21,688 nt of DNA from a virus. The translations under genes were made by a program, and so were the position numbers. The notes beneath the pieces were generated by a model. That model saw only the letters and a list, made by a program, of their open reading frames with translations. It was not told the DNA's origin and ran no database searches. The DNA lies in IMG/VR virus record IMGVR_UViG_3300032240_003187, positions 1 to 21,688 of that record, one strand, 5' to 3'. This document shows positions 3,288 to 19,808 of the stretch, piece by piece (within the stretch, counting starts at the first letter, position 1; each line of letters starts with the position of its first letter).

Positions 3288-3292
3288 ACTAT

Positions 3293-4953: not shown

Positions 4954-4959
4954 TACTAA

Positions 4960-4988
4960 ATTCTAAAGTATTTTTCGCAAAAAAGCAA
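4960..4988 (-). promoter_or_regulatory. Sigma70-like promoter ending six bases before the helicase ATG
   Basis: On the minus strand, TTGCTT (4988-4983), a 17-base spacer, TAGAAT (4965-4960), then TTAGTA and ATG 4953. The -10 box matches at 5 of 6; the -35 box is weak. The predicted +1 is the start codon. This is the weakest of five sites with the same layout. Confidence 0.4.
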
Positions 4989-4990
4989 GA

Positions 4991-5338
4991 TTAAATCTTA
5001 CGAATTGTGACTTCAGAGTTGTAATATTTGGAGGGGTTCTTTATGAAGTAAAACAAAATGCTATGCTCTACTTCCGGGTCCCTTTTTGTAAAATACTCTT
5101 CCAAATAAGATAACACCAAATGATCCGGGTTGTTGGTGTATTTAAAAGGGTAAGGAATTTCAAAGTGAACCATCTTGGTAGAATTGTTTGGCAATAATTG
5201 GAAGTCCAAATAAAAATCCTTTATGGCAAACAGCACTAATCGGCCTTCCTTTAATACCTTGTCCCGATGCACGAATTGAATATTCTTTTGCAACAGCGCG
5301 GTAAAATCCTTTTCAACATGCTCCATGTATATATTCAT
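4991..5338 (-). CDS. Hypothetical protein (115 aa)
   Basis: I do not recognise a family. The protein is soluble, rich in aromatic residues (LFAIKDFYLDFQLL, HFEIPYPFKYTN, LFYFIKNPSKYY) and alternates beta-like strands with charged turns; there is no signal peptide or membrane segment. The start ATG 5338 overlaps the stop of the preceding gene in an ATGA arrangement, indicating translational coupling. A second ATG lies four codons in. It is the last gene of the run that begins with the kinase and gp62-like genes and precedes the separately promoted helicase. Confidence 0.7.
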   Translation of the reverse strand: MNIYMEHVEKDFTALLQKNIQFVHRDKVLKEGRLVLFAIKDFYLDFQLLPNNSTKMVHFEIPYPFKYTNNPDHLVLSYLEEYFTKRDPEVEHSILFYFIKNPSKYYNSEVTIRKI

Positions 5339-5646
5339 GAGTTCATAAACTTAATTTTTTGCTGAGGACTCATCAGGACTAGCCGCTCATTAAAAAATTT
5401 CCAAAATCCAGCATTGGGGACCAGAGTTACTAATTCACACGCATCCATATTAACACACCGGTAATCCTGCATAAAGATGTCCCAAGTAATTAGCAAATTT
5501 TTTTGTACGGGGTTGAATCTCGGTTGGTTATAAGCCGGCCGAAAATTTAAAGCAACACGGCCTTGATTGCTATTTAAGAGACTAAGATCCCCTGTACATA
5601 GCATACGCCGAAAAGGCGGCGACCCTGGTTTAAGGTGTCGCCGCAT
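5335..5646 (-). CDS. Small protein, possibly WYL_2 (Sm-like/SH3 barrel) type
   Basis: A protein of 103 residues from ATG 5646, which has TGGAG nine bases upstream. The frame is open further up to 5709, but that start would overlap the GroES-like gene by 44 bases, so the later start is chosen. The pattern FRRMLCTGDLSLLNS, followed by NLLITWDIFMQDYRCVNMDACEL, resembles the WYL_2 (formerly DUF2693) layout: a basic stretch with CT near the start, and a WD..xxxxR strand near the end. That is recognition by eye and moderate at best. It is translationally coupled to the gene downstream by ATGA and sits between the co-chaperonin-like gene and an unknown gene. Confidence 0.6.
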   Translation of the reverse strand: MRRHLKPGSPPFRRMLCTGDLSLLNSNQGRVALNFRPAYNQPRFNPVQKNLLITWDIFMQDYRCVNMDACELVTLVPNAGFWKFFNERLVLMSPQQKIKFMNS

Positions 5647-5665
5647 AAACTTTATCTCCAAAACA

Positions 5666-6112
5666 TTACTTTTTTGAAGATTTTGCAGTGATGCTAGCGA
5701 CACTCTCATTGTCTTGGATCATGGAAGCAATGCCGAAAATACGTTGTTCGTTAATGAAGATACCCTTTTCTAGTTCGCCGTAACCTTCGATATCAATTTT
5801 GGCAATGGGGATGCCGAGGTTGTTCGGGAAGATAATATAATCCCCGACCTTAGCGTGTTTAACGTTAGGCCCGGCTAGAAGAACTCGACCGATACGCCAA
5901 GCTTTGGTGTCGGCGTTTCCGGGAATATAAATACCGCGACGTAGAATAGCAGTCCCGTCCCGGGATTCATCCACAAACTCTGCCAACATGACATCGTCCA
6001 GGATTTGTTTTAGTTTGAACCCGTAGAGAACCGAATTGAAGGTGTTCTTGGGTAGTTCCGATAAGTCTATGAGACTTTTTTGTGTGGGCAATACATCAAT
6101 AGGTAATGGCAT
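5666..6112 (-). CDS. GroES/gp31-like co-chaperonin candidate
   Basis: A 148-residue protein from ATG 6112. GroES-type co-chaperonins cap the GroEL chamber; T4 gp31 replaces host GroES so that the major capsid protein can fold. Support: an N-terminal strand DDVMLAEFVDES that fits the GroES opening, then RIGRVLLAGPNVKHAKVGDYIIFPNNLG (residues 73-100), which follows the GroES pattern of a G-x-V strand, a loop, then KVGD-x-x-x-F, and finally a closing strand EQRIFGIAS. Residues 48-66 could be the mobile loop that contacts GroEL. It is longer than bacterial GroES (about 97) and T4 gp31 (111), with extra N- and C-terminal tails. An upstream ATG at 6145 would overlap the gp62-like gene and is less likely. 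Confidence 0.62.
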   Translation of the reverse strand: MPLPIDVLPTQKSLIDLSELPKNTFNSVLYGFKLKQILDDVMLAEFVDESRDGTAILRRGIYIPGNADTKAWRIGRVLLAGPNVKHAKVGDYIIFPNNLGIPIAKIDIEGYGELEKGIFINEQRIFGIASMIQDNESVASITAKSSKK

Positions 6113-6117
6113 GCTAT

Positions 6118-6125
6118 TATTGAGT
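6118..6125 (-). promoter_or_regulatory. Weak late-type motif before the GroES-like gene
   Basis: ACTCAATA on the minus strand is followed by ATAGC and ATG 6112, the same five-base spacing as at 3293-3300. It matches TATAAATA at only 5 of 8 positions, so it may be chance. There is no Shine-Dalgarno sequence here. Confidence 0.25.
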
Positions 6126-7319: not shown

Positions 7320-7645
7320 AAAACAATGCCAGTATTGGCTTCTACACGATGAGCTCGATCATCGTAAAATGCTACCATACCATGATCCTTAATACAAGTA
7401 ACGGCTAATTTTTGACCAATGTGAACTTCACACCAATCATGAATAGCGGTGCGAACTGCTTCCAGGTCGCGATTTTCGTAAGGCGCCACTCGCGCGGTAA
7501 AGATACGAACTTCTTTACCTTCTTCTAGCCAACGCTTTACACGATTGACCATAAGGGGAATGGGTTCGCCGATAATGGTTTCACCTTTGAAACCATCATA
7601 GCGGGCTAAGGTTGCATCTAAATCTACGCCAATCCAGGGATTCAT
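7313..7645 (-). CDS. HAD-superfamily phosphatase (small)
   Basis: A 110-residue HAD-fold hydrolase from ATG 7645; a TTG nine bases earlier would lie in the upstream gene. Motif I is GVDLDATLA with the nucleophile Asp8 and Asp10 (DxDxT). Motif II is the Thr of IFTARV (Thr50). The motif III Lys is probably Lys86, and motif IV is FYDDRAHR (Asp95, Asp96). The protein lacks a large cap domain, which suggests that it acts on an exposed phosphate of a macromolecule or relies on a partner. It is coupled to the P-loop kinase downstream and starts one base after the stop of the DUF366 gene. The cluster DUF366-HAD-kinase probably forms one transcript from the promoter at 8238-8265. Confidence 0.85.
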   Translation of the reverse strand: MNPWIGVDLDATLARYDGFKGETIIGEPIPLMVNRVKRWLEEGKEVRIFTARVAPYENRDLEAVRTAIHDWCEVHIGQKLAVTCIKDHGMVAFYDDRAHRVEANTGIVLC

Positions 7646-7646
7646 A

Positions 7647-8231
7647 TTAAACAATTACTTTTGAGGTGGCAATGAAGATATCATCAACCATCGGATAGAA
7701 AATACCAATGACATCATTCATAAATGCGGTAGCTTGTTCATTGGTCAAATTGGTGGAATAAGCAAAAGCAGGTGCCTTTTTGCCGGCGGTGATGTTAATA
7801 GCGGTATGACCTAGCGCCACATTATTGGAGCTGTAGGTAATAGATACACTGGCCTTGCCCTTGGGTTGCACAACGCCGCCTTGATTGTGTTCTTTATGAA
7901 CAATCAAATCATCGCCATCGACCTCAATAGGTGCTTTGAGGTATTTGACACTCAAGATGTTGGCGATCTGGGTGTTGAGCAAGCGTTGAAACGCTACCGC
8001 ACCAAAAGGACAAAGGTTTGGAATTTCCCAACAGAAATTGATCGCATCATCACTATAAATGTAATCCTTGGACAAGATATCTTCATTGTCAATCATGCCT
8101 TCCGCTTCGACCTGCATAGGAGCACGAAAAGCAACAATGTTGCCAATAGGAAGGGTTTTGTCTCGGAAGAATTTGTAAGCAAAGCGGGAGTGGATAAGAT
8201 TGCCATCGTAAAGAGATTGTTGAATAATCAT
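7647..8231 (-). CDS. DUF366 family protein, possible 7-deazaguanine biosynthesis enzyme
   Basis: A 194-residue protein with the layout I know for DUF366: an N-terminal LYDGNLIHSRFAY (Asp9, Gly10), IVAFRAPMQVE, an acidic MIDNEDIL, IYSDDAINFCWEIP with Glu69, FQRLLN (Gln82, Arg83), then DGDDLIV and KASVSITY. DUF366 proteins occur in archaea and in phages. As I recall, work on phage 7-deazaguanine DNA modification predicted a decarboxylase, DpdL, acting on 7-carboxy-7-deazaguanine, and I believe it belongs to this family, but I cannot verify that here. The presence of folE and queE in the same window supports the link. The gene has a sigma70-like promoter almost identical to that of folE. Confidence 0.72.
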   Translation of the reverse strand: MIIQQSLYDGNLIHSRFAYKFFRDKTLPIGNIVAFRAPMQVEAEGMIDNEDILSKDYIYSDDAINFCWEIPNLCPFGAVAFQRLLNTQIANILSVKYLKAPIEVDGDDLIVHKEHNQGGVVQPKGKASVSITYSSNNVALGHTAINITAGKKAPAFAYSTNLTNEQATAFMNDVIGIFYPMVDDIFIATSKVIV

Positions 8232-8237
8232 AATAAT

Positions 8238-8265
8238 ATGATATATCCCTTTATTTGATTTTCAA
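8238..8265 (-). promoter_or_regulatory. Sigma70-like promoter ending six bases before the DUF366 ATG
   Basis: On the minus strand, TTGAAA (8265-8260), 16 bases, TATCAT (8243-8238), ATTATT, then ATG 8231. The -35 box and both spacings are the same as at folE. The predicted transcription start is the ATG. No Shine-Dalgarno sequence is present. Confidence 0.6.
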
Positions 8266-8281
8266 GCTTTTTTTTTGCGAC

Positions 8282-8986
8282 TTAACGATTGTGAATTAAC
8301 AATTGACCCCAAGATTCCGTGCGATAGGGGTTGCCATATTGTGTAATGTCAAATATGGGTTCTTGGTTGTATTTTTTGCAAAGTAAACTAAGAACGGCTT
8401 GGTCGTGTCGGTGATCTATAAACACATCATAATTAGGAAAGTCTTGTGTATTCGGCATGTCTGTCAATATTCGTTCATCCTCACAAAAGGCTAGCCATTC
8501 CGTCACTATCTTTTCTGTAAGTTCAGTTTTCCGTATCGTTAGGTAACTAGCCCCATATTGACTAGTAATTGATTGATTATCGCACCCCATTAATACGTAA
8601 GCGTCTCTTTTTGTAACCATGCGATCGTTTCCGGTGCCATCATTAACACGAAACATCAGAATGTTTTTGTCGGCTATGAAATTAAAAATTGGTGCTAATG
8701 ATTGAATTTGGATAATCGTCGCATCCGCATAAAAAAGAATGTCATCATAATCCATTTTTGACAAAATTCTTTTAATTAAATGAGGTTTCCACAACCAATA
8801 TCCCGCGCCACGCGATTGATCAAATATATGAGCAAATTTTTTACGATATTCTGCATCTATGCTATGCTCATCCAATGAATAATATTTGTCGAAATCTCCT
8901 ATTTTTTGAAAGGATAGGAGAGACTTTTCTTTGAAGGAAGAAAAATAATTTGTAGAAGTACCGTAATTTAAGAAGTATTTTTTCAC
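8282..8986 (-). CDS. Glycosyltransferase-like protein, last gene of glycan operon
   Basis: A 234-residue protein of a type found in phage and bacterial polysaccharide clusters. Its signature is RGAGYWLWKPHLIKRIL (about residues 59-75), DDILFYADA (about 81-89, where a GT-A enzyme would bind the nucleotide sugar) and HRHDQAVLSLLCKKY (about 192-206). Donor and acceptor are unknown. The start is GTG 8986, whose GTGA overlaps the TGA stop of the gene upstream, so translation is coupled. The coding sequence looks more AT-rich by eye than the replication genes to its left. It is followed by a 50-base gap containing the DUF366 promoter. Confidence 0.65.
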   Translation of the reverse strand: MKKYFLNYGTSTNYFSSFKEKSLLSFQKIGDFDKYYSLDEHSIDAEYRKKFAHIFDQSRGAGYWLWKPHLIKRILSKMDYDDILFYADATIIQIQSLAPIFNFIADKNILMFRVNDGTGNDRMVTKRDAYVLMGCDNQSITSQYGASYLTIRKTELTEKIVTEWLAFCEDERILTDMPNTQDFPNYDVFIDHRHDQAVLSLLCKKYNQEPIFDITQYGNPYRTESWGQLLIHNR

Positions 8987-9600
8987 TTCACGGGGACATA
9001 TATAATAGCCGCTTTACGCAAAGTGTCAGTATACTCAATGCGATACGCCCTATTAATTTGTTTGACGGCTTCTTCGAATTTTTCTTTTGTCGGCCATCCC
9101 GGTCCGTTTAGATCTATCGCATCATCGACGATTATCACATGATTCTTTATATTAGAATGCTCGTTTATCGCTTGCAATTCTTCGATAATGGGGGAATAAC
9201 TAGGGGAGTGAGCATCTAGCAATATCACAAATCGGGTATCGGGGCGATCGGTCAACGCATTAACAAGAAAAGGTACTGAATCCCCGGAATAAAATGTTAT
9301 GTTGGGGTGAGTCTTTCTTATTTCTCTGTATGCTGCCAATAAACCCGGGTGGCCATATGGATTTTTCTCTACATACTTTTCAACTGTGCTAACGTTGTCA
9401 AATAATTCCGCAAAAAATGTTGTCGTATCGCCTTGATATGTGCCCGTTTCTATTGCGTCCTTAATTCCTTCAATATCAGAAATAGAGTTTTTGTGATTAA
9501 ACAAAATCTGACAAAAAAGGTTTGGAACATCAACACAAGACGGGTGAGCCACTACACGTGACCACCGACTATCTTGTTTATCATATGTTTTGATTTTCAT
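8983..9600 (-). CDS. Methyltransferase-fold protein, paralogue 1 in glycan operon
   Basis: A 205-residue protein with a Rossmann-like SAM-binding pattern: AIETGTYQGDTTTFFAELF as the first strand and loop, STVEKYVEKN as the acidic second strand, ITFYSGDSVPFL, VILLDAHSP and VIIVDDAID. The IETGT-x-x-GD motif, the LDAH strand and the [IV]DD strand are shared with the next gene upstream, so the two are diverged duplicates. Function is probably methylation of a sugar or nucleotide sugar, but a non-methylating relative is possible. There are only two bases between the upstream stop and this ATG. Confidence 0.6.
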   Translation of the reverse strand: MKIKTYDKQDSRWSRVVAHPSCVDVPNLFCQILFNHKNSISDIEGIKDAIETGTYQGDTTTFFAELFDNVSTVEKYVEKNPYGHPGLLAAYREIRKTHPNITFYSGDSVPFLVNALTDRPDTRFVILLDAHSPSYSPIIEELQAINEHSNIKNHVIIVDDAIDLNGPGWPTKEKFEEAVKQINRAYRIEYTDTLRKAAIIYVPVK

Positions 9601-9602
9601 GC

Positions 9603-10214
9603 TTATTTTGGTTTAAAAACTAAAAATCCTTGATCCTTCAGGACACGTTCGAATTTATGGGTTTGGGAAAGCATCTCCACAAAAACATCTATCATTTTTT
9701 TGTCACCAACGAGTTCTTCACGGGTGATGTCGTGTCCGCATTTTTTACAATGTTCATTAAATGTACCCCATGAAGAACCCCAATCTTCATAAATCCACAA
9801 ATCATCTGCAATGATAACATCGTCGTTACCTCTTTTTGAGATAAGCGATAACTCTGCTTCTAAGGGAATTTTTTTTGATAGGTTTATCTCGCTCTTATAA
9901 GACGCGAGATTAGCATCACACCCCGGAAAATGTGCATCTAACCAAAATAGTACAGGCTCCTTTATCGTCGGCAATATTTCTTTCAAAACATCGGGTGAAT
10001 TGCCTAACAAAATTTGTACTCTTGGATTTGTGGCGTATTTGTTTTTCGCCTGTTGATAAAGCGTTTCGTTTATTTCAATAGAAATAATTTTTTCAAAGCC
10101 ACATTCCAAAGCATAATCTACCCCATCCCCATACAGGGTACCGGTTTCTATGAAGGTAGTAATATTTTTTGCTTGTGCGATGTTCTTTAAATCGAAAGTG
10201 CGTATAGATCCCAT
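9603..10214 (-). CDS. Methyltransferase-fold protein, paralogue 2 in glycan operon
   Basis: A 203-residue protein in which TFIETGTLYGDGVDYAL (SAM-binding loop), KIISIEINETLYQQAKNKY (acidic Glu at the end of strand 2), VQILLGNSPDVL, LFWLDAHFPG and VIIADDLWIYED are recognisable in the class I methyltransferase order. It aligns with the downstream gene through IETGT, LDAH and the DD strand. It keeps a clearer second strand (ISIEIN) than its paralogue and is the more likely of the two to bind SAM. It has a three-base gap to the upstream stop. Substrate unknown; the operon context suggests a glycan. Confidence 0.65.
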   Translation of the reverse strand: MGSIRTFDLKNIAQAKNITTFIETGTLYGDGVDYALECGFEKIISIEINETLYQQAKNKYATNPRVQILLGNSPDVLKEILPTIKEPVLFWLDAHFPGCDANLASYKSEINLSKKIPLEAELSLISKRGNDDVIIADDLWIYEDWGSSWGTFNEHCKKCGHDITREELVGDKKMIDVFVEMLSQTHKFERVLKDQGFLVFKPK

Positions 10215-10217
10215 AAA

Positions 10218-10847
10218 TCAATCTTTCTGAAGTACAAAACAACCAACACCAAACGCCCGGTCCTCATACAGTACTTCTTCCATGTTTTGCGGGGTTTCAA
10301 TATTCCATGTACCATTACGAGGCCCATTCGGCACTTCCCCGGCTAGTTTATATGTGTACATTTCTACGATAGAGCTGCCTTGGGTTAAATCCAAGATGCC
10401 CTTCATGTTGTAATTCTGATGGAATGGCTGCCAGCGATGCTTGCCAAACGGTACCGTAAGGATAATGTGTCCTTTCGGATTCAATACCGATAAGGCCTTT
10501 TCATACCCCTTTCGGTCATATCCTTGTCTAAAAACCACATCTGATTCAGTACACTGCGGAAAGTGCTCCAATGATGATAAAAACATGACAATGTCAAATG
10601 TTTCATTGAAAGGCAGGCTAACGAAATCGCCCACATATTTTCCGCCTCGGAAATCGCATATGTTGTAATTTACCTGATTAGAAGAGATGAAATTGTAAAA
10701 AGCCTCCATCTCTTGGGATTTTGTAGGTACACCTCCAACATCTAAAATGCTATTCGACTTGCGATGATATTTTTGCACCATCTCTAAAACGAATTTCGTT
10801 TCGATAGTTCGCTCGCTTCCGGCGGTATTGGGGTAGGAATCCAACAT
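10218..10847 (-). CDS. Class I SAM-dependent methyltransferase
   Basis: A 209-residue protein with the common methyltransferase order: NSILDVGGVPTK (motif I, SAM loop, about residues 32-43), YNICDFRGG (acidic end of strand 2), DIVMFLSSLEHFPQ (motif IV with the SLEHF helix) and GHIILTVPFGKH (post-motif strand). C-terminal residues may form the substrate pocket. This type is common in O-antigen and nucleotide-sugar clusters, where it methylates a sugar hydroxyl or amine. ATG 10847 lies one base after the stop of the SDR gene, so it is co-translated. Confidence 0.78.
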   Translation of the reverse strand: MLDSYPNTAGSERTIETKFVLEMVQKYHRKSNSILDVGGVPTKSQEMEAFYNFISSNQVNYNICDFRGGKYVGDFVSLPFNETFDIVMFLSSLEHFPQCTESDVVFRQGYDRKGYEKALSVLNPKGHIILTVPFGKHRWQPFHQNYNMKGILDLTQGSSIVEMYTYKLAGEVPNGPRNGTWNIETPQNMEEVLYEDRAFGVGCFVLQKD

Positions 10848-10848
10848 A

Positions 10849-11826
10849 TTATTTGATTTTATTCAACCAGTAAGTAAGCAAGTCACGAATAGTGGTTTTC
10901 AACTCATATACAGGTTTCCAATTGGTGATTTCTACCAATTCCGAGCAATCCCCGTGTTGATAATGAATGTCGATAGGGCGATAAAATGGTGGGTGTATAA
11001 TCTTTTCCACATTAGACAACCCACTAGCTTCGATTAACATGTCAGTGTAAACACCCATCTTGTAGGGCACGTCCCCGGATACATTAAATATCTTGCCGTT
11101 GGATTTGTCGCTCTGCATTAACAAATAGTATGCATTGACAATATCCCGCACATCCAAAACAACTCGAACAGATTCAAGATTGCCGACGAGCAATTTTTTG
11201 TCTTTATACCCTTTCATCATTTGCGCAATTTGATAGGCGTCAGATGATATTGAAAAGGTTTTCCCGCGACGAGGGCCTGTGTGGGAAAATGCACGGGTGA
11301 TAAATCCTTGAATTTTCTTGTTTTCAAATCTTTCTTGCAAATATAAATCAATAGCAGCTTTACTAGCGCCGTACGGGTTGGCCGGCAAAAGAGTATCTGT
11401 GGTTTTTATTTTACGGTGGTCAATGCCGATATTGCCATACACTTCTGATGTGCTACAAAACATCAACTTGCAATCCGGTTGGTTGTCGGAAATCGCCTGA
11501 ATGAGATTTGCTGACCCCATAATGTTGCTTTCAAAGGTTCCGATAGGATCTGAAAAGCTGGTCGGTGGGTGAGATTGAGCAGCAAGATGGAATACCCCGT
11601 CGAACTTTTCCTTTTGGAAAATTCCATTCAATGTACGTAAATTTGTTAAATCGCTGTAGACGAATTTAATTTTGTTGAATTTTTGTTCCGGAACAACGTC
11701 TAATATATCCGTTTCCATTCCGTTTGAGCCACGAACTAATCCGTACACTTCATGGCCTTGATCAATCAAAAGGTTGGCGAGATGTGGACCTGCAAACCCA
11801 GTTATACCAGTTATGAGATATTTCAT
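10849..11826 (-). CDS. NAD(P)-dependent sugar epimerase/dehydratase, GDP-mannose pathway type
   Basis: A 325-residue extended SDR. GITGFAGPHLAN has the glycine-rich nucleotide motif (Gly7, Gly10, Gly13). The catalytic set is Ser125/Thr126 in CSTSEVYG plus Tyr152 and Lys156 in YGASK. FHLAAQSHPPTSFSDP, RAFSHTGPRRG and VRVVLDVRDIVNAY are the forms seen in GDP-mannose 4,6-dehydratases and GDP-4-keto-6-deoxymannose reductases. The length and the ITGFAGPHLA start favour the reductase type (GDP-rhamnose) over the dehydratase. ATG 11826 overlaps the upstream stop (ATGA); an earlier ATG at 11838 is less likely. A GDP-deoxysugar donor fits the GT10-type enzyme encoded two genes upstream. Confidence 0.85.
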   Translation of the reverse strand: MKYLITGITGFAGPHLANLLIDQGHEVYGLVRGSNGMETDILDVVPEQKFNKIKFVYSDLTNLRTLNGIFQKEKFDGVFHLAAQSHPPTSFSDPIGTFESNIMGSANLIQAISDNQPDCKLMFCSTSEVYGNIGIDHRKIKTTDTLLPANPYGASKAAIDLYLQERFENKKIQGFITRAFSHTGPRRGKTFSISSDAYQIAQMMKGYKDKKLLVGNLESVRVVLDVRDIVNAYYLLMQSDKSNGKIFNVSGDVPYKMGVYTDMLIEASGLSNVEKIIHPPFYRPIDIHYQHGDCSELVEITNWKPVYELKTTIRDLLTYWLNKIK

Positions 11827-12548: not shown

Positions 12549-13363
12549 TTAAAAAGGAAAGGGTAGTGCTTGTATATCCAATCTTCAGGAATGCGATAAT
12601 CCTCTACTTTTGAAAAGTTTCTTCCGATAGCTTCTTTTTTGGAGTTATAAAGGGCGTCGCCGCTTTTTTGAATTTCCTCAAGGATGCCGCGCAGTTCATT
12701 TTTGTCTTGAAAGAAGATAATACCTTCTTTATCAAAGTGCTCTGTTACTGAAGCGTCACCCCAAAATAAGGGAATGGTTTTCGTTGCGAAGCAATCTACA
12801 ATCTTTTCAGTCCAATATCCGGGTTGGATGCTGTTTTCAATTGTAATTGAAAATTTGTAAGGTGACAAAGCGTCTTCTTTATTTTCGATCGATTTATAAC
12901 CATGTCCGAATACATCAAAAGCCCCCGCCATTTCCGCAATAATTTCATGGCGCAAACGATGACCTACCGTGGTATTTTTACTGGACGCTATAATCGAGGT
13001 GTTTTTTACCTTTGGAGTTTCAATGTAATGGTTAATCCAACAACGACCATGGGGATAGTAGATGAAATTTTCTCCGCGATTGATCAATTCTGTATCAAAT
13101 GTCAAGACATAATCAAAAAGGCGGTTGTTCGTGGATATCCAATTATAGACGTGGGGGTGGATAGCGCGTGGCTCTAAAATCCAAGCAATTTTGCGTTTGA
13201 CGTGTTTAGCCTTTATAACATCCGGCAAGCACATATCCGTAATGAAACAAGAGTTGCTTACTAATTCGTTGCGGAATACCCACTCTACAAATTTATTAGT
13301 TCCTTTGTGGCATGATGACGGTTCCCCGTCAAAATTTTTATCGCGTATGTTTACTTTTACCAT
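12545..13363 (-). CDS. Glycosyltransferase family 10 (alpha-1,3-fucosyltransferase-like)
   Basis: A 272-residue GT-B enzyme. The diagnostic C-terminal block is residues 169-202: YKFSITIENS, then PGYWTEKIVD, then TIPLFWGD. It matches the alpha-1,3-fucosyltransferase motif with ENS, Y-x-TEK and the P-x-x-x-G end, which binds a GDP-sugar (GDP-fucose in known members). VFGHGYKS just before it is also typical. There is no membrane anchor, as in bacterial members such as those of Helicobacter. The GDP-sugar SDR encoded nearby could supply a donor. The gene overlaps the upstream GT gene by seven bases and the GT9-like gene downstream by four. Confidence 0.85.
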   Translation of the reverse strand: MVKVNIRDKNFDGEPSSCHKGTNKFVEWVFRNELVSNSCFITDMCLPDVIKAKHVKRKIAWILEPRAIHPHVYNWISTNNRLFDYVLTFDTELINRGENFIYYPHGRCWINHYIETPKVKNTSIIASSKNTTVGHRLRHEIIAEMAGAFDVFGHGYKSIENKEDALSPYKFSITIENSIQPGYWTEKIVDCFATKTIPLFWGDASVTEHFDKEGIIFFQDKNELRGILEEIQKSGDALYNSKKEAIGRNFSKVEDYRIPEDWIYKHYPFLFK

Positions 13364-14139
13364 GTTTTGATATATTCTTCCAATTGTTCTTTATTCATCG
13401 ATTCCACCTTAGTAACAATCTGATGGTTGTTGCTATAATGATTATGTTGGCTTTTATCCTTCGCTACAATTTCATGTGGTAGATGAAATAGATAAGCATC
13501 GGGCGTATTGATTTTAGTTACCATATACCCTAAACGATGCACGCGGGAAACTATTTCATTGTCTTCATACCCCCAGCCTACAAAAAACGGATTGAATCCA
13601 TTATATTTGCGGAATGCTTGTCGGGTTGTAACTACACAACCCCCAACTGAGTGAACTCCTGCTAATTGAAAGAACGGATAGTTGGTCAATGGAACGAGAC
13701 TATGCCAATGCGCAGGCAGTAAGGCTTGCATTTTTTCCATAGTGATGCCATCTGCCAGTTGCGCCTTTCCTTTGTAGTTCAAATACAACGCCGTGCCATT
13801 ATAAGCAACACAGATACCGGGCGTTCGGTTAACGGTTTCTACGGCAGTTGTAATGTGTTTAGGGTCAACAACAATATCAATATCCAGAAAACAAAGGTTA
13901 TCAAATTTAACGCATTGAAACCCTAAATTGTACCCTAAACATTTTCTATGTGGGCCACCATTCTTCAAAAGAACATACGAATCACCCTCTTGAAGGTCTT
14001 GAAGCGTGGGTTCTTTTGCTTCTTCAACAAAGACAAATTGACAACCCGGGAATTGTTCTTTGTAAAATTTATACACTAATTGATAGTTCTTTTTTCTTTC
14101 AATTGTGTCTTGTCTGTAATGCACTATGAAACTAATCAT
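13357..14139 (-). CDS. GT-A glycosyltransferase, GT2/GT7 galactosyltransferase-like
   Basis: A 260-residue enzyme with a DxD metal-binding motif in CFLDIDIVVDP (Asp86, Asp88) and a C-terminal part like the galactosyltransferase C-domain: SVGGCVVTTRQAFRKYNGFNP (about 164-184), then GWGYEDNEIVSRVHRLGY, where WGYEDNE (189-195) contains the likely catalytic acid. It begins MISFIVHYR, the usual first strand. There is no transmembrane segment. The downstream GT10 gene starts within its last codons. Donor probably UDP-linked by family analogy; not shown by the sequence. Confidence 0.85.
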   Translation of the reverse strand: MISFIVHYRQDTIERKKNYQLVYKFYKEQFPGCQFVFVEEAKEPTLQDLQEGDSYVLLKNGGPHRKCLGYNLGFQCVKFDNLCFLDIDIVVDPKHITTAVETVNRTPGICVAYNGTALYLNYKGKAQLADGITMEKMQALLPAHWHSLVPLTNYPFFQLAGVHSVGGCVVTTRQAFRKYNGFNPFFVGWGYEDNEIVSRVHRLGYMVTKINTPDAYLFHLPHEIVAKDKSQHNHYSNNHQIVTKVESMNKEQLEEYIKTW

Positions 14140-14145
14140 AAAAAT

Positions 14146-15000
14146 TTAGATTTTTGCTAATTTGCGTTGGCGCTTAATCCATTCAATGACCTCTTCTTTA
14201 GTATGAAAAGGTGGATTGTTGGGATAATGACCATGCTTGGTGAGATACTTTTCTCGTCCACCGTAAACATTCTTATGCCATTGGTCCTTTTTATCGGCAA
14301 TCGAGGATTTATCGATAGCACCCGGTGCTTCTGTTAACATCTCATGGCTATTAGCGAGATCCGCAAAATACCAAAAGGGTGGATGATATCCGGCTTTGAT
14401 GATGCGATACGTGAGGTCTACGTGTTCCCAGGCATTGTAAAATTGCTCATCATGTAGTCCGACCTTTTCTAGGACCACTCGATGAAAATAAGAAAACATA
14501 GCTACGGTATGCTCGTAAAGTGCCAATTTAATTCCAGAGGGGTATTCGAAGATTAATCGGGGATTCGGTGCTGAATCCTGTTTGAGGAGATGGCGAGTGT
14601 CTAAATCAATGCGGATGTTAGGATCTTGTTTGCGATTAAACGGACTGCCCGGTCCGTAATTAAAATGGAGAATGCCAGACTCTTTAGCAGCATTGATATA
14701 AGCTTCAAAGACCTTCGGGTCTTTAACAATCATGTCATCTTCAAGAAGGAAAATATGCTCACAGCCTTTATCCAAAAGATATTTCAATGCATCATTTTTA
14801 CTAATGCCCACGCCAGTATTATTCGCGTGATGAATCCAATGAGCGCTATTGTAGGGGGATAATTCATATTCTGCTTGGTGTTTGCCGTCGTTAACTACGA
14901 CCAATTCATCGATTTTATCCTTAGGAATACTATTGAAGCATTGGCTGAAAAAATCAAAGCGATTACAGGTTACAATACCTAACCCAATTTTTGATGGCAT
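14146..15000 (-). CDS. Glycosyltransferase family 2, first gene of glycan operon
   Basis: A 284-residue GT-A enzyme. GLGIVTCNR at residues 6-14 is the GT2 entry strand; LVVVNDG follows, then a GISKNDALKYLL helix, HIFLLEDDMIV with the acidic EDD (87-89) as nucleotide-sugar/metal site, and NAWEHVDLTYRIIKAGY as the catalytic ED-type motif. The C-terminal tail is basic (EWIKRQRKLAKI). It is the promoter-proximal gene of the nine-gene operon and is divergent from the fibre-like gene across a 28-base gap. The leader is AT-only (AATTATT before ATG) with no Shine-Dalgarno sequence, and I could not find a convincing promoter of the type seen at folE. Confidence 0.87.
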   Translation of the reverse strand: MPSKIGLGIVTCNRFDFFSQCFNSIPKDKIDELVVVNDGKHQAEYELSPYNSAHWIHHANNTGVGISKNDALKYLLDKGCEHIFLLEDDMIVKDPKVFEAYINAAKESGILHFNYGPGSPFNRKQDPNIRIDLDTRHLLKQDSAPNPRLIFEYPSGIKLALYEHTVAMFSYFHRVVLEKVGLHDEQFYNAWEHVDLTYRIIKAGYHPPFWYFADLANSHEMLTEAPGAIDKSSIADKKDQWHKNVYGGREKYLTKHGHYPNNPPFHTKEEVIEWIKRQRKLAKI

Positions 15001-15014
15001 AATAATTATGTTAA

Positions 15015-15022
15015 CGTAAATA
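15015..15022 (+). promoter_or_regulatory. Late-type promoter motif CGTAAATA before the fibre-like gene
   Basis: CGTAAATA (6 of 8 with TATAAATA) is followed by six bases and ATG 15029. The predicted +1 is the base before the start codon. It lies in the 28-base divergent gap and would serve a structural gene on the plus strand. Confidence 0.45.
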
Positions 15023-15028
15023 ATATAA

Positions 15029-15733
15029 ATGGCAACGAATCAAGTCAACATTATTAACCTGTCTAACCTTCCAGAGGCGCAAGACATTACAAGCGGTAAT
15101 TTTCTTATCGTACAAAATGATCTCGGAACCCAGATTATTGATTGGGACAACGTGCCGGCAGTGCGACAAGACGCACAAGGAAATGCTAGCCTGACGGGCA
15201 CTCTTACTGCCACCGGTGTCATTGCCGATAACGTTGCCGTAGACAGCTTATCTGCGGAATATATTACCAGTAACGGGCTTCCGGGTGTTTCCTATCAAAA
15301 TCAATACCTAAACACCTTCACCTTTACTCATGGTATTATCACTTCTGGTGGTTTTGTCATTGGTAGTCCAGAGTATCAAGACTTGGTAACTAATGTCATC
15401 CCGGCAGCAACTGCTTATTCGGCTGGTGTAGCTCAAGCGGTCTATGAAGTCTATGCGAATAACCTAGCGGGTATTCCGACTAATTCACTATCAGCTAACT
15501 TGACATTTACCGTGTTGCCATCAGAAATAAATTACACTTCTTTTAATTCGGTAGATTTTAATATTGGTTACACCGGAACTATTGCATTATCCACCATTCC
15601 TTATATTTCCAATATTGGATCGGATATTAACAACAATCTCACGGCTACCTTGTTTTTAAGACAGCCAGCACCTAGCCCAGGATTTAATGCGAACGACTTT
15701 ACCGTGAAGGTAACCAAACACTACACGGTATAA
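15029..15733 (+). CDS. Putative virion structural protein, fibre-like
   Basis: A 234-residue protein, low in charge and rich in Thr, Ser, Asn, Ile and Val, with a beta-structure pattern and no membrane segment. The N-terminus (NIINLSNLPEAQDITSGNFLIVQND, then GTQIIDWDNV) resembles the start of tail-fibre and other virion proteins of T4-like marine phages, where a short SxLP-type segment precedes the fibre body. The middle and C-terminus (repeated SAEYITS, SANLTF, YTGTIALSTIPYI) look like beta-sandwich or fibre modules. It stands alone on the plus strand among minus-strand genes, has its own late-type motif and a strong terminator 45 bases beyond its stop. A capsid decoration protein is another possibility. 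Confidence 0.6.
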   Translation: MATNQVNIINLSNLPEAQDITSGNFLIVQNDLGTQIIDWDNVPAVRQDAQGNASLTGTLTATGVIADNVAVDSLSAEYITSNGLPGVSYQNQYLNTFTFTHGIITSGGFVIGSPEYQDLVTNVIPAATAYSAGVAQAVYEVYANNLAGIPTNSLSANLTFTVLPSEINYTSFNSVDFNIGYTGTIALSTIPYISNIGSDINNNLTATLFLRQPAPSPGFNANDFTVKVTKHYTV

Positions 15734-15930
15734 AATAGAAGAGCTTTACACAGCTTTTTGAAAGCCGCTTTGGGGTTCATGCCCGCTTTAATAAGCCGGG
15801 CATGTTCTTTTTTGAAGGCCAGAACAAATTCCTTACTCAATTCAAAATTACGAGGATAGAACTCCCGCTTGATGTACTTTATGCTTTTGAATTCTTCGGA
15901 TAATAATTTGTCTAGTTCTTCAAATCTCAC
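15721..15930 (-). CDS. Hypothetical protein (69 aa), GTG start
   Basis: A short, highly charged, probably helical protein (FEELDKLLSEEFKSIKYIKREF, then LAFKKEHARLIKAGMNPKAAFKKL). No family recognised. It begins at GTG 15930, five bases after the late-type motif CCTAAATA and six bases before the P-loop gene's stop codon end (15935). Its 3' end overlaps the convergent fibre-like gene by 13 bases; because the overlap is nearly palindromic, both proteins end Tyr-Thr-Val. The terminator of the plus-strand gene lies inside this ORF. It fills a gap neatly and has normal-looking composition, but it could be spurious. Confidence 0.55.
   Translation of the reverse strand: MRFEELDKLLSEEFKSIKYIKREFYPRNFELSKEFVLAFKKEHARLIKAGMNPKAAFKKLCKALLFYTV
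15778..15813 (+). terminator. Intrinsic terminator for the fibre-like gene
   Basis: CATGCCCG (15778-15785) pairs perfectly with CGGGCATG (15797-15804); CTT/AAG extend the stem inward past one bulged base, and the loop is TAAT. The stem is followed by TTCTTTTTT. It lies 45 bases after the stop at 15733, within the antisense 69-aa ORF. Confidence 0.8.
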
Positions 15931-15934
15931 AATA

Positions 15935-16753
15935 TTATTTAGGCTTAATATTGCGTAACTTCTTAGGATCGAAGGGGGCTAGAGGGTCAAATTTGTCCAA
16001 TGGATCCAACTTGTCTTGGATTTTGGCGCTGAGAATCTTGCTCTTTTCCTTTTTAAGCTTGGTTTCCTCGACGGAAGCGTCTTGCTGGTCTCGGATGAGA
16101 CTTTGCATCATGTCCAGGTTTTCCGGTGAAAGGATGCTAGCCGCGGTGTCAATAACGTCTCCTTGTGTATTCAGATACAGTTTAACCATCTCAATACGCT
16201 CCAACGGACTACCGAAAATCTCAATAATCGGCGGTGCGTCATCCTTAACAAAGAACGGACTGACACCTCTTTGCTGTTGATATTCGATTGCTTTGAAGAT
16301 GTTATCAATTTCGGCAATGAATTCCGGATCTACATCCCGGTTTTCACGCTTTTCCAAAGGAACCGGCGCAACTTTGGTGATTGGGGTGAAGAAGATAATG
16401 TCCAAAGCCCGCAAGCTTTCTTTGACCTTCTCAATGCATTCTTTCACAAACTCTGCATCAATCTCTTTATTACCCTTCTCGTGTGCCCAAAGGGTGAACA
16501 CCAAATTATCTAATGGACACCGATCAAATAGAATATTATCACTCTTTTTGGTTTGCTGAATGTCATCAATCAAACAATCTAAGATAATGCGCTGACTTTC
16601 TTTGGTTACTTGTTTGTTAAGACTAAGTCCCTTTTCTTTTGCTACACGGCGATAGGACTCATTAGAACGACGATACATCGGCCATTCCTTAATGATGTCA
16701 TTGATAAGTGTAGATTTTCCTTGATTGGCGGCGCCAATGATAGCAATTCTCAT
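15935..16753 (-). CDS. P-loop NTPase/kinase-like protein (AAA_28 type) with DPL-repeat tail
   Basis: A 272-residue protein. Walker A is GAANQGKST at residues 7-15. ILFDRCPLDNLVFTLWA (about 74-90) is the DR-x-P-x-D segment of NadR-like and nucleoside kinases. DIIFFTPI is a further core strand. A GSPLERIEMVKLYL strand/helix closes the fold near 181-194. After residue 210 the protein becomes a charged helix (TKLKKEKSKIL) and then a tail with three D-P steps: DKLDPLDKFDPLAPFDPKKL (247-266), an unusual short repeat that may bind a partner. Substrate unknown. It is the second such P-loop protein in the window; the two are distant. It has a sigma70-like promoter. Confidence 0.75.
   Translation of the reverse strand: MRIAIIGAANQGKSTLINDIIKEWPMYRRSNESYRRVAKEKGLSLNKQVTKESQRIILDCLIDDIQQTKKSDNILFDRCPLDNLVFTLWAHEKGNKEIDAEFVKECIEKVKESLRALDIIFFTPITKVAPVPLEKRENRDVDPEFIAEIDNIFKAIEYQQQRGVSPFFVKDDAPPIIEIFGSPLERIEMVKLYLNTQGDVIDTAASILSPENLDMMQSLIRDQQDASVEETKLKKEKSKILSAKIQDKLDPLDKFDPLAPFDPKKLRNIKPK
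15936..15943 (-). promoter_or_regulatory. Late-type motif CCTAAATA, five bases before a GTG start
   Basis: CCTAAATA (6 of 8 with TATAAATA), then ATATT, then GTG 15930: T4 late spacing puts +1 at the G of the start codon. The motif also spells the last codons and TAA of the P-loop gene, so it could be chance. Confidence 0.35.
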
Positions 16754-16759
16754 AAAGAT

Positions 16760-16787
16760 ATTTTATCTGTGATTTGGTTTAAATCAA
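16760..16787 (-). promoter_or_regulatory. Sigma70-like promoter ending six bases before the P-loop gene ATG
   Basis: On the minus strand, TTGATT (16787-16782), 16 bases, TAAAAT (16765-16760), ATCTTT, then ATG 16753. Same spacings as at folE, queE and DUF366. The -35 box overlaps the palindrome GGTTT-GATTT-AAACC (16776-16790), a possible repressor site. Confidence 0.55.
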
Positions 16788-16822
16788 ACCTTCAAAGCCT
16801 TGTTTAATTATAAATTATGTGA

Positions 16823-17569
16823 TTAAACGCGAAGAGCTCGGTTCCAGATCATTAATTGCAGGCGCGGGCTGAATTTGAAATTGTTCTTTTTGCACATTTC
16901 CGCCACCCACACGCTCTGCTCATTCTGTTCTTCGCGGGAGCCGCAGCAAGGCATTAGCCAAACCTGATTGCGAGTAATGAGACCGGGTTTGATGTATTTT
17001 TCAATAACTTCGTCCACATCTTCTTCGGTTCGAACCACGAATTTAAAGCAAGCATTGGCTTGTGATAGGAGCTTCAACACCTCCGGTTTGTATCGTTTTT
17101 CTTCTGGATCGCCATTGTTAGCCAACTTTGGTGAACTAGTGAAGGTGGCAATGTCTAACCAAAACGGATCAGGTGCGATAGTGCCGTTGGTTTCAAAATC
17201 AATCAAAGGCATGAACTCATATCGCTTAGCAAAGGCTTTGACTAATTCAATTAAAGCCTTTTGCTGAATAAAAGGTTCACCACCGGTAATTTTCCAGATA
17301 GCGCCGTTCTTTAACCGAGAAATCATACTATCAAAGGTATAAGGATCCAAAACTTCCATCGCCTGAAAGATCTCATCAAACGATTTCTTGTTCTTGACCG
17401 ACCAGCTAACAAAACTGTCACAACCAAACGGTGAATCTTTGCTTTTAAATCCTTGGCAAGTGAGATTGCACATGGACAATCTCATAAAAACGGATGGGCA
17501 TCCTACGTAACGGCCTTCGCCTTCAATGGTGTAAAAGATAAAATCATCAGAAAGAAATAAATCACTCAT
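16823..17569 (-). CDS. queE: 7-carboxy-7-deazaguanine synthase, radical SAM (QueE)
   Basis: A 248-residue radical SAM enzyme that turns 6-carboxy-tetrahydropterin into 7-carboxy-7-deazaguanine. FYTIEGEGRYVGCPSVFMRL at residues 12-31 is the QueE opening, with the EGEG motif; TGGEP is at 95-99; DFETNGT follows; the C-terminus has NQVWLMPCCG and FSPRLQLMIW. The iron-sulfur cysteines are Cys34, Cys38 and Cys50, i.e. CxxxC then eleven residues before the third Cys, where the common form is Cx3Cx2C; the CDSFVSW that follows shows the site is intact with an insertion. In bacteria the product leads to preQ0 and queuosine; in phages it can feed DNA modification. A strong promoter lies immediately upstream. 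Confidence 0.93.
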   Translation of the reverse strand: MSDLFLSDDFIFYTIEGEGRYVGCPSVFMRLSMCNLTCQGFKSKDSPFGCDSFVSWSVKNKKSFDEIFQAMEVLDPYTFDSMISRLKNGAIWKITGGEPFIQQKALIELVKAFAKRYEFMPLIDFETNGTIAPDPFWLDIATFTSSPKLANNGDPEEKRYKPEVLKLLSQANACFKFVVRTEEDVDEVIEKYIKPGLITRNQVWLMPCCGSREEQNEQSVWVAEMCKKNNFKFSPRLQLMIWNRALRV

Positions 17570-17575
17570 ACTCCT

Positions 17576-17603
17576 ATTATAGGATAATTTTTTACTTAAT
17601 CAA
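17576..17603 (-). promoter_or_regulatory. Sigma70-like promoter ending six bases before the queE ATG
   Basis: On the minus strand, TTGATT (17603-17598), 16 bases, a perfect TATAAT (17581-17576), AGGAGT, then ATG 17569. The AGGAG is only one base from ATG, too close for normal Shine-Dalgarno use, and would lie upstream of the predicted +1. The -35 box lies in the last codons of the upstream gene. Confidence 0.65.
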
Positions 17604-18241: not shown

Positions 18242-18242
18242 G

Positions 18243-18515
18243 TTAGTAATTATACCCGCAGAATGATGAAATCACTGGGCTGGGCTTTGGAATTAAAGCC
18301 TCTGCTAGGATGCGGTTAACCGTGTCGTCAAAGCTTTCTTTCACTTTTTTGCTCTTACCGGCTTTGCTAAGCGCGATGGCGATCGCTTGTTTGCGAGCTT
18401 TGTCCTTGTTAGCGGGTTTAGACGTTCCTATTTTACCTTTCTTTTTGAAGGTGTGCATTAACTCTTTAATGTTAGAGCTTACAGCTTTTTGGGATTTACC
18501 AGTTTTGAGGGGCAT
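18243..18515 (-). CDS. Small basic protein, DUF6496-like
   Basis: A 90-residue, very basic protein. PLKTGKSQKAVSSNIKELMH, then RKQAIAIALSKAGKSKK, is the pattern I know as DUF6496 (GKS...I..LM, then QAIAIALS-x-AGKS), widespread in phages and bacteria and without a proven function. Here 15-20 extra residues (KKKGKIGTSKPANKDKA) separate the two halves. The C-terminal tail has FDDTVNRILAEALIPKP (residues 62-78), a segment that recurs at the N-terminus of the protein encoded just upstream. It may be a head-internal DNA-binding protein (inference). Confidence 0.68.
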   Translation of the reverse strand: MPLKTGKSQKAVSSNIKELMHTFKKKGKIGTSKPANKDKARKQAIAIALSKAGKSKKVKESFDDTVNRILAEALIPKPSPVISSFCGYNY

Positions 18516-18519
18516 AAAT

Positions 18520-19362
18520 TTAAGGAGTAGCGGCAGCTTTCGGAATGAATTTTACTTTATACAACTGTACTTTAGCTGCACCCATGTTGCGTTCCACAAC
18601 CCCCACAATCTCGCCAGTAACTTCTTCTCCGGTTTGAATGCCTTCTCCGGTAATGGTGTCACCTACTTTGCGAACACCGGAAACGGAAGCCACCGGAATG
18701 TAATCCGTGTCAGGGCGGGCTTTGGAATCGATTTCAAAGGCACCCGTTTCAAAATTGAAAAGAAAACTAGGGTTGTGTCCGGATTCTTTTTCGTTTTTGA
18801 TATATTTGCCTTCGGGTGTCACGTTACTGACGATGTATTTTCTAACAGAATAATATGGCAGCTGTGACTGATCTACCGTCATCACCATAGCTAAATTAGG
18901 TTGACCATCATTTCCCGGAGCCGGGTTAGCCATAATCGTGTAAGCAACTTCTTTATTGCCGACATTTTGGGTATTGGTAATTTTACCAATGTAATCCCCA
19001 TAATACATTGTCAGCATTTTAATTTGATCGCCTGTCTTTGGCCATCCATTCGGCACAGCCAACTTTTGATAATACTTTTCCAAATCTGCTTGACGTTGGC
19101 CTTGAACTTCTTTTTTAAATCCTTTAGCACCAGCAACCGCGGCTGCCATGGTGCCGTGTATGGTTCCAAATTGGTCTAACTTATTAGCCAACCCCTTCGG
19201 ATCAAAGATTACTTGCTTACCTAGGTTAGCCAAATTCTTGCCAGCAACCTTCGCTGCGGTTTTTAATACCCCGCCAGTAGGAGGCTTGACGGATTTGATT
19301 TTCGGTTTAGGAGCGTCTGCCTCTGCGACTAAAACCAAGTCTTTGAAATTATAGCGCTTCAT
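18520..19362 (-). CDS. Uncharacterised protein (280 aa), possibly virion-associated
   Basis: I do not recognise the family. Residues 5-21 (NFKDLVLVAEADAPKPK) resemble the tail of the neighbouring 90-aa protein. Residues 22-100 are Ala/Gly/Lys-rich and helical (VLKTAAKVAGKNLANLGK). From about 105 on the sequence is beta-rich with many Gly and Thr; QIKMLTMYYGDYIGKI and TGEEVTGEIVGVVERN look like two small barrel-like modules. No signal peptide or membrane segment. It overlaps the upstream 135-aa gene by 14 bases and has five bases to the next gene, so the block 19756-17592 is one operon. Confidence 0.7.
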   Translation of the reverse strand: MKRYNFKDLVLVAEADAPKPKIKSVKPPTGGVLKTAAKVAGKNLANLGKQVIFDPKGLANKLDQFGTIHGTMAAAVAGAKGFKKEVQGQRQADLEKYYQKLAVPNGWPKTGDQIKMLTMYYGDYIGKITNTQNVGNKEVAYTIMANPAPGNDGQPNLAMVMTVDQSQLPYYSVRKYIVSNVTPEGKYIKNEKESGHNPSFLFNFETGAFEIDSKARPDTDYIPVASVSGVRKVGDTITGEGIQTGEEVTGEIVGVVERNMGAAKVQLYKVKFIPKAAATP

Positions 19363-19756
19363 GATTTTTGATGAATTCTCTGTAGAAATTTACCTTTTCG
19401 GCGTCGGTGGTGCCGCGCATTTTTAAAACCTCTTCCACATCTTCAAAGCGAGCGGCGTTGACAATATTAAAAAAGGAAGGATCGGAATCCAAAAGCTGTA
19501 ACTTATTCAAGAGAAAGTATTTAAAATGATCTAACAGACCGGGTTTAGCTAAGGCAGCGGCTGGTATATCTACTACCGGAGACCCTTGCTTAATGACCAT
19601 AACCCGGACGATTTGGGCGTTTTCTTCCAAAATGTAACCTTCATAACTGTCAATGCTTTTGAAATTCTCGTAAGAAGCATGGCGAGGGTCCACCTTAATT
19701 CTTATTCTTTTAAGGTGCTTATGTACGTTTTCAAAAAATACGTGATTAAAGCGCAT
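19349..19756 (-). CDS. Hypothetical protein (135 aa)
   Basis: No family recognised. It is a mixed alpha/beta protein with a basic N-terminus (NVHKHLKRIRIKVDPRH), a central beta part (YEGYILEENAQIVRVMVIKQGSPVVDIP) and a helical C-terminal half (HFKYFLLNKLQLL, ARFEDVEEVLKMRG). It heads the five-gene block 19756-17592 and is divergent from folE across 52 bases. The late-type motif AGTAAATA lies 11 bases before its ATG and abuts the folE -35 box. Confidence 0.7.
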   Translation of the reverse strand: MRFNHVFFENVHKHLKRIRIKVDPRHASYENFKSIDSYEGYILEENAQIVRVMVIKQGSPVVDIPAAALAKPGLLDHFKYFLLNKLQLLDSDPSFFNIVNAARFEDVEEVLKMRGTTDAEKVNFYREFIKNHEAL

Positions 19757-19767
19757 GTTGTTAATAT

Positions 19768-19775
19768 TATTTACT
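19768..19775 (-). promoter_or_regulatory. Late-type motif AGTAAATA before the 135-aa gene
   Basis: AGTAAATA matches TATAAATA at 6 of 8 positions and ends 11 bases before ATG 19756, giving a predicted leader of about six bases. It shares one base with the divergent folE -35 box, so the two promoters could exclude each other. Confidence 0.4.
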
Positions 19776-19802
19776 TGAAAGTAGTATCAATACCAGTATA
19801 AT
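19775..19802 (+). promoter_or_regulatory. Sigma70-like promoter ending six bases before the folE ATG
   Basis: TTGAAA (19775-19780), 16 bases, a perfect TATAAT (19797-19802), AACAAT, then ATG 19809. The expected +1, seven bases past the -10 box, is the A of the start codon. No Shine-Dalgarno sequence is present. This is the clearest of the five promoters with this layout. Confidence 0.7.
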
Positions 19803-19808
19803 AACAAT

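Follow-up and report, generated by a model that had tools for sequence, protein, structure and literature searches.

Promoter boxes fused to start codons

The window, that is, the whole stretch of 21,688 nucleotides of viral DNA analysed here, carries five genes (helicase, DUF366, P-loop kinase-like, queE and folE) that are each preceded by a sigma70-like promoter, the -10 box of which ends six bases before the ATG (Table 1). These five sites had been described in a sequence-only reading; every one was found exactly as described, and the fused sites in the window are real. We also confirmed that no usable Shine-Dalgarno motif lies ahead of them, the AGGAG at queE ending, as that reading had remarked, one base from the ATG. 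The gene starts of the window, 32 in all, were chosen manually among the listed ORFs. The pattern TTG-N16/17-TANNNT-N6-ATG was present at five of them, and when their upstream regions were dinucleotide-shuffled 2000 times it occurred on average 0.036 times and at most twice. Each -10 distance other than six was seen at 0–3 genes, and a reversed-pattern control gave one match in the window. A sixth match to the pattern (7360–7397, minus strand) is intragenic and was taken as chance.

Three more window genes have a T4 late-type TAAATA box 5–6 bases ahead of the start codon, a class absent from the sequence-only reading.

Table 1. Promoter boxes adjoining start codons in the window (positions in nucleotides; strand in brackets)
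Gene	Gene position	-35 box	Spacer	-10 or TAAATA box	Bases to start codon	Start codon	Element	Element with ATG
GIY-YIG endonuclease	2466–3287 (-)			TAAATA 3293–3298	5	ATG at 3287	3288–3298	
Helicase	3325–4953 (-)	TTGCTT 4983–4988	17	TAGAAT 4960–4965	6	ATG at 4953	4954–4988	4951–4988
DUF366	7647–8231 (-)	TTGAAA 8260–8265	16	TATCAT 8238–8243	6	ATG at 8231	8232–8265	8229–8265
ORF	15029–15733 (+)			TAAATA 15017–15022	6	ATG at 15029	15017–15028	
ORF	15721–15930 (-)			TAAATA 15936–15941	5	GTG at 15930	15931–15941	
P-loop kinase-like	15935–16753 (-)	TTGATT 16782–16787	16	TAAAAT 16760–16765	6	ATG at 16753	16754–16787	16751–16787
queE	16823–17569 (-)	TTGATT 17598–17603	16	TATAAT 17576–17581	6	ATG at 17569	17570–17603	17567–17603
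folE	19809–20471 (+)	TTGAAA 19775–19780	16	TATAAT 19797–19802	6	ATG at 19809	19775–19808	19775–19811

Conservation of the spacing in relatives

The window phage belongs to a large uncultured T4-like family, mostly from freshwater, with relatives such as IMGVR_UViG_3300019776_000961 and 3300017917_005108. Membership in the T4 superfamily is seen from the portal gene of the window (phrog_213) and from gp20, gp23, gp17, gp43 and gp44, which are encoded by the relatives. Orthologous upstream regions were located by protein match. The box of DUF366 lies exactly six bases from the start in 42 of 53 distinct orthologue upstreams, none of which has a Shine-Dalgarno motif. For the helicase, a -10 box is found 4–9 bases from the start in 55/60 distinct upstreams (distance 6 in 33 and 5 in 15, allowing at most one mismatch). 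Boxes at 4–9 bases were also observed for queE (21/24 distinct orthologue upstreams, exactly six in 12) and for folE (38/59 distinct upstreams of relatives). Only three distinct relatives were found for the P-loop site, which is not clearly conserved; this counts against the explanation given below. At DUF366 and the helicase the box spacing is kept while the surrounding DNA diverges, and the 5–6 linker bases are conserved in length and not in sequence.

The sequence-only reading had proposed that a -10 peak at six bases, absent from shuffled sequence, should appear genome-wide. We observed this peak in all six relatives examined (157–230 kb; gene starts called by a simple purpose-written gene caller, which counts against the explanation given below), where early-type boxes at six bases occur at 12–26 genes per relative (0.2–0.4 in shuffles) and late-type boxes at five bases at 21–34 genes (0.4–0.8 in shuffles). 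Under the same caller, T4 and cyanophage P-RSM4 have no gene with either geometry. The joint counts of -10 distance and spacer in the relatives peak at (6, 16) with 34 and (6, 17) with 19; these counts and the base frequencies place a TTG element 16–18 bases from the TANNNT box, as in sigma70-type promoters. The -35 box stays 16–17 bases from the -10 box even where the latter shifts to 5, 7, 8 or 9 bases from the start codon.

TATAAT-like words are common in low-GC DNA, but the shuffles, the counts for T4 and P-RSM4, and the conservation across 53–60 distinct orthologue upstreams refute a chance match in A/T-rich DNA or an artefact of gene-start calling, either of which we regard as exceedingly improbable.

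An early or late fused box precedes about 44% of the non-overlapping genes in the relatives. Around half of the separately placed genes have no recognised fused box, and this counts against the explanation given below. Shine-Dalgarno motifs occur at 3–10% of well-separated genes in the relatives, which is near background, and at 67% in T4, bearing out the earlier remark that leaders are the norm for early genes of the T4 type. About half of the separately placed genes in these phages probably need no ordinary ribosome-binding site.

Late-type promoter boxes

The late box of T4 spans 8 bp starting from -13 (PMC2988020), and therefore ends at -6, which corresponds to a distance of five bases. 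As the TAAATA boxes of the relatives lie at this same distance from the start codon, late transcripts should also begin on the start codon. The gp55 promoter of T4 has TATAAATA between -13 and -6, lacks a -35 element and is A/T-rich downstream. The likeness to it is partial: the TAAATA core is placed correctly and the downstream DNA is A/T-rich; the first two bases are A/T-rich and not TA. As at the gp55-dependent promoters of T4 (PMC2988020), no -35 element is recognised. A homologue of the gp55 sigma factor (phrog_234) is encoded by 9 of 10 relatives; the window, being a genome fragment, showed none. It is likely that gp55 reads the TAAATA boxes.

Leaderless transcripts as the preferred explanation

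Promoters lying so near the start codon should give mRNAs that open with the first codon. From the arrangement of the boxes, we consider it very probable that early and late promoters alike are fused to start codons, systematically producing leaderless mRNAs or mRNAs with leaders of 0–3 nt. Transcription would start at the first base of the start codon, A or G, or no more than about three bases from it. At early and metabolic genes (helicase, DUF366, queE, folE) the host polymerase would use a sigma70-type promoter (TTGA-N16/17-TATAAT, six bases, RTG), and at late genes the host polymerase with the phage sigma gp55 would use a T4 gp55-type promoter (TAAATA core, five bases, RTG). Ribosomes would then initiate at the 5'-terminal ATG or GTG with no need of a Shine-Dalgarno sequence. 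Genes overlapping the preceding gene would presumably depend on coupled translation or, in some relatives, on a Shine-Dalgarno site. The actual 5' ends and the leaderless translation are thus what we infer from the boxes. The leaderless early mRNA of the sequence-only reading is supported by the six-base peak; its limitation to early genes was too narrow, since the late TAAATA class is also fused. Leaderless genes are already known; what is new, to the extent of our search, is that a T4-type phage employs them for early and late expression alike. Promoters further upstream could contribute leadered transcripts as well, and this counts against the leaderless explanation.

The sequence-only reading had offered an alternative in which the -10-like box acts in translation. 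The boxes would then be A/T-rich initiation elements (unstructured leaders contacting S1 or the ribosome, in a host not using Shine-Dalgarno sites), with transcription starting further upstream. Most starts indeed have no Shine-Dalgarno site, and A/T-rich upstream regions are known in hosts of this type. However, this alternative is quite improbable in view of the -35 TTGA enriched at a matching distance and tracking the -10 box as it moves, the late box placed at a distance of its own that equals the known box-to-+1 distance in T4, and the linker conserved solely in length.

A smaller set of boxes lies 7–9 bases from the start codon and therefore suggests leaders of 1–3 bases instead of none, which counts against strict leaderlessness. 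Start-site wobble is normal for sigma70. It is possible, though we hold it to be the less probable case, that the promoters generally give very short leaders (1–5 nt), through such wobble or through boxes at 7–9; the preferred explanation itself allows leaders of some three bases, and to that extent the two overlap. The main peaks, however, are at exactly six (sigma70) and five (late) bases, and from there any downstream shift of the start point would remove part of the start codon.

The choice of start codons also bears on leaderless initiation. GTG is used at 81 of 470 fused starts and at 44 of 859 ATG/GTG starts elsewhere (P = 3e-12), and TTG at 0/470 fused starts and 21/880 elsewhere (P = 2e-4). 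Both the enrichment of GTG and the absence of TTG are expected of leaderless mRNA. Leaderless GTG starts perform poorly in E. coli, so the host of the phage must differ, a point against the explanation. In mycobacteria, leaderless translation proceeds from ATG and GTG only, and not from TTG (PMC4633059).

Comparison with known systems

In the leaderless 'TA-led' genes of Actinobacteria and Deinococcus-Thermus, the Shine-Dalgarno site is replaced by a -10 box some 10 bases ahead of the start codon (PMC3160421). The phage -10 box is sharply placed at a similar distance, no Shine-Dalgarno motif accompanies it, and the genes start with ATG or GTG, as they do in mycobacteria (PMC4633059). Unlike the TA-led genes, the phage genes belong to a T4-like virus, and its late promoters, a second class of phage type, repeat the arrangement. 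In T4 itself, most TAAATA boxes are 12–29 bases upstream and a Shine-Dalgarno sequence precedes the majority of genes, whereas here only five bases separate the box from the start codon.

Pelagibacter phage HTVC008M resembles the window phage in having late-type boxes fused to ATG: TAAATA lies 4–7 bases ahead of ATG in 13 of 190 genes (exactly five in 10), often as ATAAATAGTA. Examples with five bases are at positions 18916 (-), 19456 (+), 31132 (+) and 49760 (+) of its genome. It differs in that its fused boxes are of the late type only and 52–60% of its genes have a Shine-Dalgarno sequence. The late promoters of phiKZ (TATG, with G as +1; PMC4666361) also have a phage motif where transcription begins, and a start codon could lie within it, but they are an unrelated promoter type that depends on a multisubunit RNA polymerase of the phage. 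No comparable peaks were seen in Flavobacterium phage immuto or Sinorhizobium phage phiM9, and Rhizobium phage RHph_I1_18 has a few apparent fused sites (5/234 genes). Apparent fused sites in marine virus AG-341-P01 were not located at called gene starts and were rejected.

Host, bS21 and significance

Neither WhiB nor psbA genes were found in ten relatives, and hence nothing points to Actinobacteria or Cyanobacteria as hosts. Scans of bacterial genomes with the helicase and with the divergent bS21 alignment found no relative. The folE gene is closest to Flavobacterium phage folE. The Bacteroidota -10 form is TANNTTTG; a host of that phylum is argued against, despite the folE likeness, by the early -10 box being TATAAT and not TANNTTTG. 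The tRNA-Met genes of the phages have no GGG/CCC anticodon stem, and hence no phage initiator tRNA was found.

If the preferred explanation holds, a widespread T4-type group has set both host-type promoters and its own late promoters to yield leaderless messages, and ribosomes of the host, or of the infected cell, must then be efficient at initiating on a 5'-terminal ATG or GTG. Gene starts and promoter maps of these phages could also be corrected with the sequence rule that it supplies. The methods used for cyanophage late promoters did not work well on pelagimyophages (PMC7029224), and fused late boxes may help to explain why late promoters are hard to find there.

Nine of ten long relatives encode a homologue of ribosomal protein bS21. 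The phage bS21 might take the place of the host protein next to the anti-Shine-Dalgarno region and turn initiation away from leadered host mRNA, altering host ribosomes in favour of the phage's own leaderless messages; we consider this rather unlikely. When GFP translation was assayed, E. coli ribosomes carrying HTVC008M bS21 showed almost no activity (PMC6375957), as would follow from such a shift to leaderless mRNA. The role of phage-encoded bS21 would become directly testable with HTVC008M in culture; the cultured phages HTVC008M, Mosig and Melnitz each encode bS21 and carry some fused late-type promoters.

Fused promoters in the window

The sequence-only reading had reported sigma70-like promoters with a −10 box six bases before the ATG at folE, queE, DUF366, the P-loop gene and the helicase, none of them having a usable Shine-Dalgarno sequence. 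A pattern search of the window matched all five sites, plus one intragenic site. With hand-curated gene starts (n = 32), TTGNNN-N16/17-TANNNT-N6-ATG was present at 5/32 genes, as against a mean of 0.036 matches (maximum 2) in 2000 dinucleotide shuffles of their upstreams, and the lack of a usable Shine-Dalgarno site was borne out for all five. Three further window genes, absent from the sequence-only reading, have a T4 late-type (gp55-type) core, TAAATA, 5 or 6 bases ahead of ATG or GTG. We refer to promoters lying so near the start codon that the mRNA is predicted to begin on the first codon as fused, and to the sigma70-like and TAAATA types as early and late, respectively.

The window, an entire IMG/VR contig of 21,688 bases, represents a piece of a T4-like phage genome. 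It encodes a T4-type portal, tail sheath stabiliser, clamp-loader subunit, QueE, GTP cyclohydrolase I and DUF366, and also a helicase with a Helicase_C_2 domain, a P-loop kinase-like protein and a GIY-YIG endonuclease. Its portal shares 60–69% identity with the portals of nine long relatives, all uncultured, and only ~32% with cyanophage portals, which places the window in a family that has no close cultured representative among the sequences searched. The hairpin and T-run next to folE (see table) look, from their sequence, like an intrinsic terminator.

Features of the window and of its relatives (G002, G003, G005)
Feature	Sequence	Coordinates (strand)	Remarks
DUF366 protein	window	7647-8231	
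Methyltransferase-, epimerase- and glycosyltransferase-like gene block	window	8282-15000	DUF366 to ORF 15029-15733; families judged by eye; mostly without fused promoters
Hairpin CCTCTAGAGTC/GACTCTAGAGG, then TTTTTT	window	20490-20530	between folE and convergent gene 20512-21603; partial repeat just upstream
bS21 homologue	G002	15868-16029	near-ordinary form
bS21 homologue	G003	167052-167213	near-ordinary form
tmRNA prediction	L171 (a stretch of G005)	283-688 (−)	tag peptide unusually long, 33 residues

Genome-wide spacing in the relatives

Six relatives of 157–230 kb were analysed at full length, with genes called by a script that ignores upstream signals and box positions counted from the start codon; T4 and the cyanophage P-RSM4 were handled identically as controls. 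The six-base spacing also held genome-wide, as the TATAAT-like box peaked at distance 6. TTGA peaked where the spacer would be 16–17 bases, and the joint counts of −10 distance and spacer, (6,16) 34, (6,17) 19, (8,16) 10 and (9,16) 8, indicate that the −35 shifts together with the −10. The late core peaked at distance 5. Per genome, the early geometry was found at 12–26 genes (shuffle mean 0.2–0.4) and the late geometry at 21–34 (shuffle mean 0.4–0.8), while the same analysis gave 0 genes of either geometry in T4 and P-RSM4.

Overall, 44% of the relatives' non-overlapping genes (33–53% by genome) have an early or late fused box. Shine-Dalgarno sites precede 3–10% of separated genes in the relatives, near their own background, compared with 67% in T4. 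Genes overlapping a neighbour rarely have a fused box (4–9%), and at these genes Shine-Dalgarno sites exceeded background in G001, G004, G005 and G007, not in G002 and G003. The analysis confirms the original observation and carries it beyond the five genes, to the early and the late class in the phage family as a whole.

In T4, TAAATA boxes lie mostly 12–29 bases upstream, and in the cyanophages P-RSM4 and P-HM2 mostly ~20–28, unlike the peak at 5 in the relatives. The Pelagibacter phage HTVC008M (stretches L197, L199 and L200) has 13 genes, several of them structural, with TAAATA 4–7 bases before ATG; 10 of these boxes are at exactly 5, often as ATAAATAGTA. Among the other cultured T4-like phages examined, such boxes were found at 6 genes of Mosig and 3 of Melnitz. 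In all three phages, however, Shine-Dalgarno sites serve most other genes. Leaderless genes and T4-type promoters are already known; what seems new is the systematic fusion of both in a T4-type phage, for which we found no prior report in the open literature, as far as our incomplete coverage goes.

Conservation at individual genes

Upstreams of orthologues were gathered from viral contigs through protein matches and collapsed to distinct sequences. Ahead of DUF366, a TATAAT-like box lies 4–9 bases before the ATG in 51/53 (exactly 6 in 42/53), a complete two-box promoter is present in 41/53, and a Shine-Dalgarno motif in 0/53. The box falls within 4–9 bases in 55/60 helicase upstreams (exact TATAAT at distance 5, 6 and 7 in 12, 23 and 4, respectively), in 21/24 for queE and in 38/59 for folE, where many source contigs may be other phage groups. 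The P-loop gene, with three distinct relatives only, shows no clear conservation of its site. Between box and start codon, the linker is constant in length and variable in sequence. The DUF366 protein is itself unusually conserved (73–87% identity over 80 contigs, ~600 relatives; helicase, 53–60%).

Predicted leaderless geometry and start codons

The sigma70 −10 box occupies −12 to −7, so that, across a six-base gap, +1 falls on the start codon. In T4, the late box begins at −13 and is 8 bp long (PMC2988020); it therefore ends at −6, and a five-base gap has this effect too. The two promoter types thus have two distances, each equal to its own box-to-+1 distance, and a homologue of the late sigma factor gp55 is present in 9/10 relatives. 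On sequence grounds, both geometries mean predicted leaderless mRNA; for the minority of boxes at 7–9 bases, leaders of 1–3 bases would be expected.

Under P values that assume independent genes, some being in fact orthologues, GTG is over-represented at fused promoters (81/470; other ATG/GTG starts, 44/859; P = 3e-12), and no TTG occurs there (0/470 versus 21/880, P = 2e-4). GTG, near behind the −10 box, starts 55/60 distinct helicase genes (relatives L007–L086), whereas queE and DUF366 start with ATG throughout. Use of ATG and GTG to the exclusion of TTG is also the rule in mycobacteria, where ATG or GTG functions at the mRNA 5′ end and TTG does not (PMC4633059). The missing TTG might in part reflect a preference for purines at +1. 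Leaderless GTG works poorly in E. coli and Caulobacter (PMC9031893), so the phage host probably differs from both.

Ribosomal protein bS21 and RNA genes

Homologues of bS21 are encoded by 9/10 long uncultured relatives (G001–G007, G009 and G010), in two forms: near-ordinary in G002 and G003, and very divergent, ending NKWK(F/Y)Y, in G001, G004, G005 and G007. A late-type core precedes the bS21 gene as well in G001 and G002, where TAAATA lies 4 or 6 bases upstream of the ATG. Among 15 comparison phages, bS21 was found only in HTVC008M, Mosig and Melnitz, those with some fused late-type promoters; these three are mutually related, and the co-occurrence is not independent evidence. E. coli ribosomes with HTVC008M bS21 translated a T7-driven GFP template at ~5% (PMC6375957), in a report whose main text does not contain the word 'leaderless'. 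We only hypothesize that phage bS21 might act in leaderless initiation.

The relatives have up to 22 tRNA genes (stretches L130–L132, L147–L148 and L150–L151). In three of these phages the predicted tRNA-Ile(tat) is 93–95 nt long, and may contain an insertion or be a mis-called tRNA.
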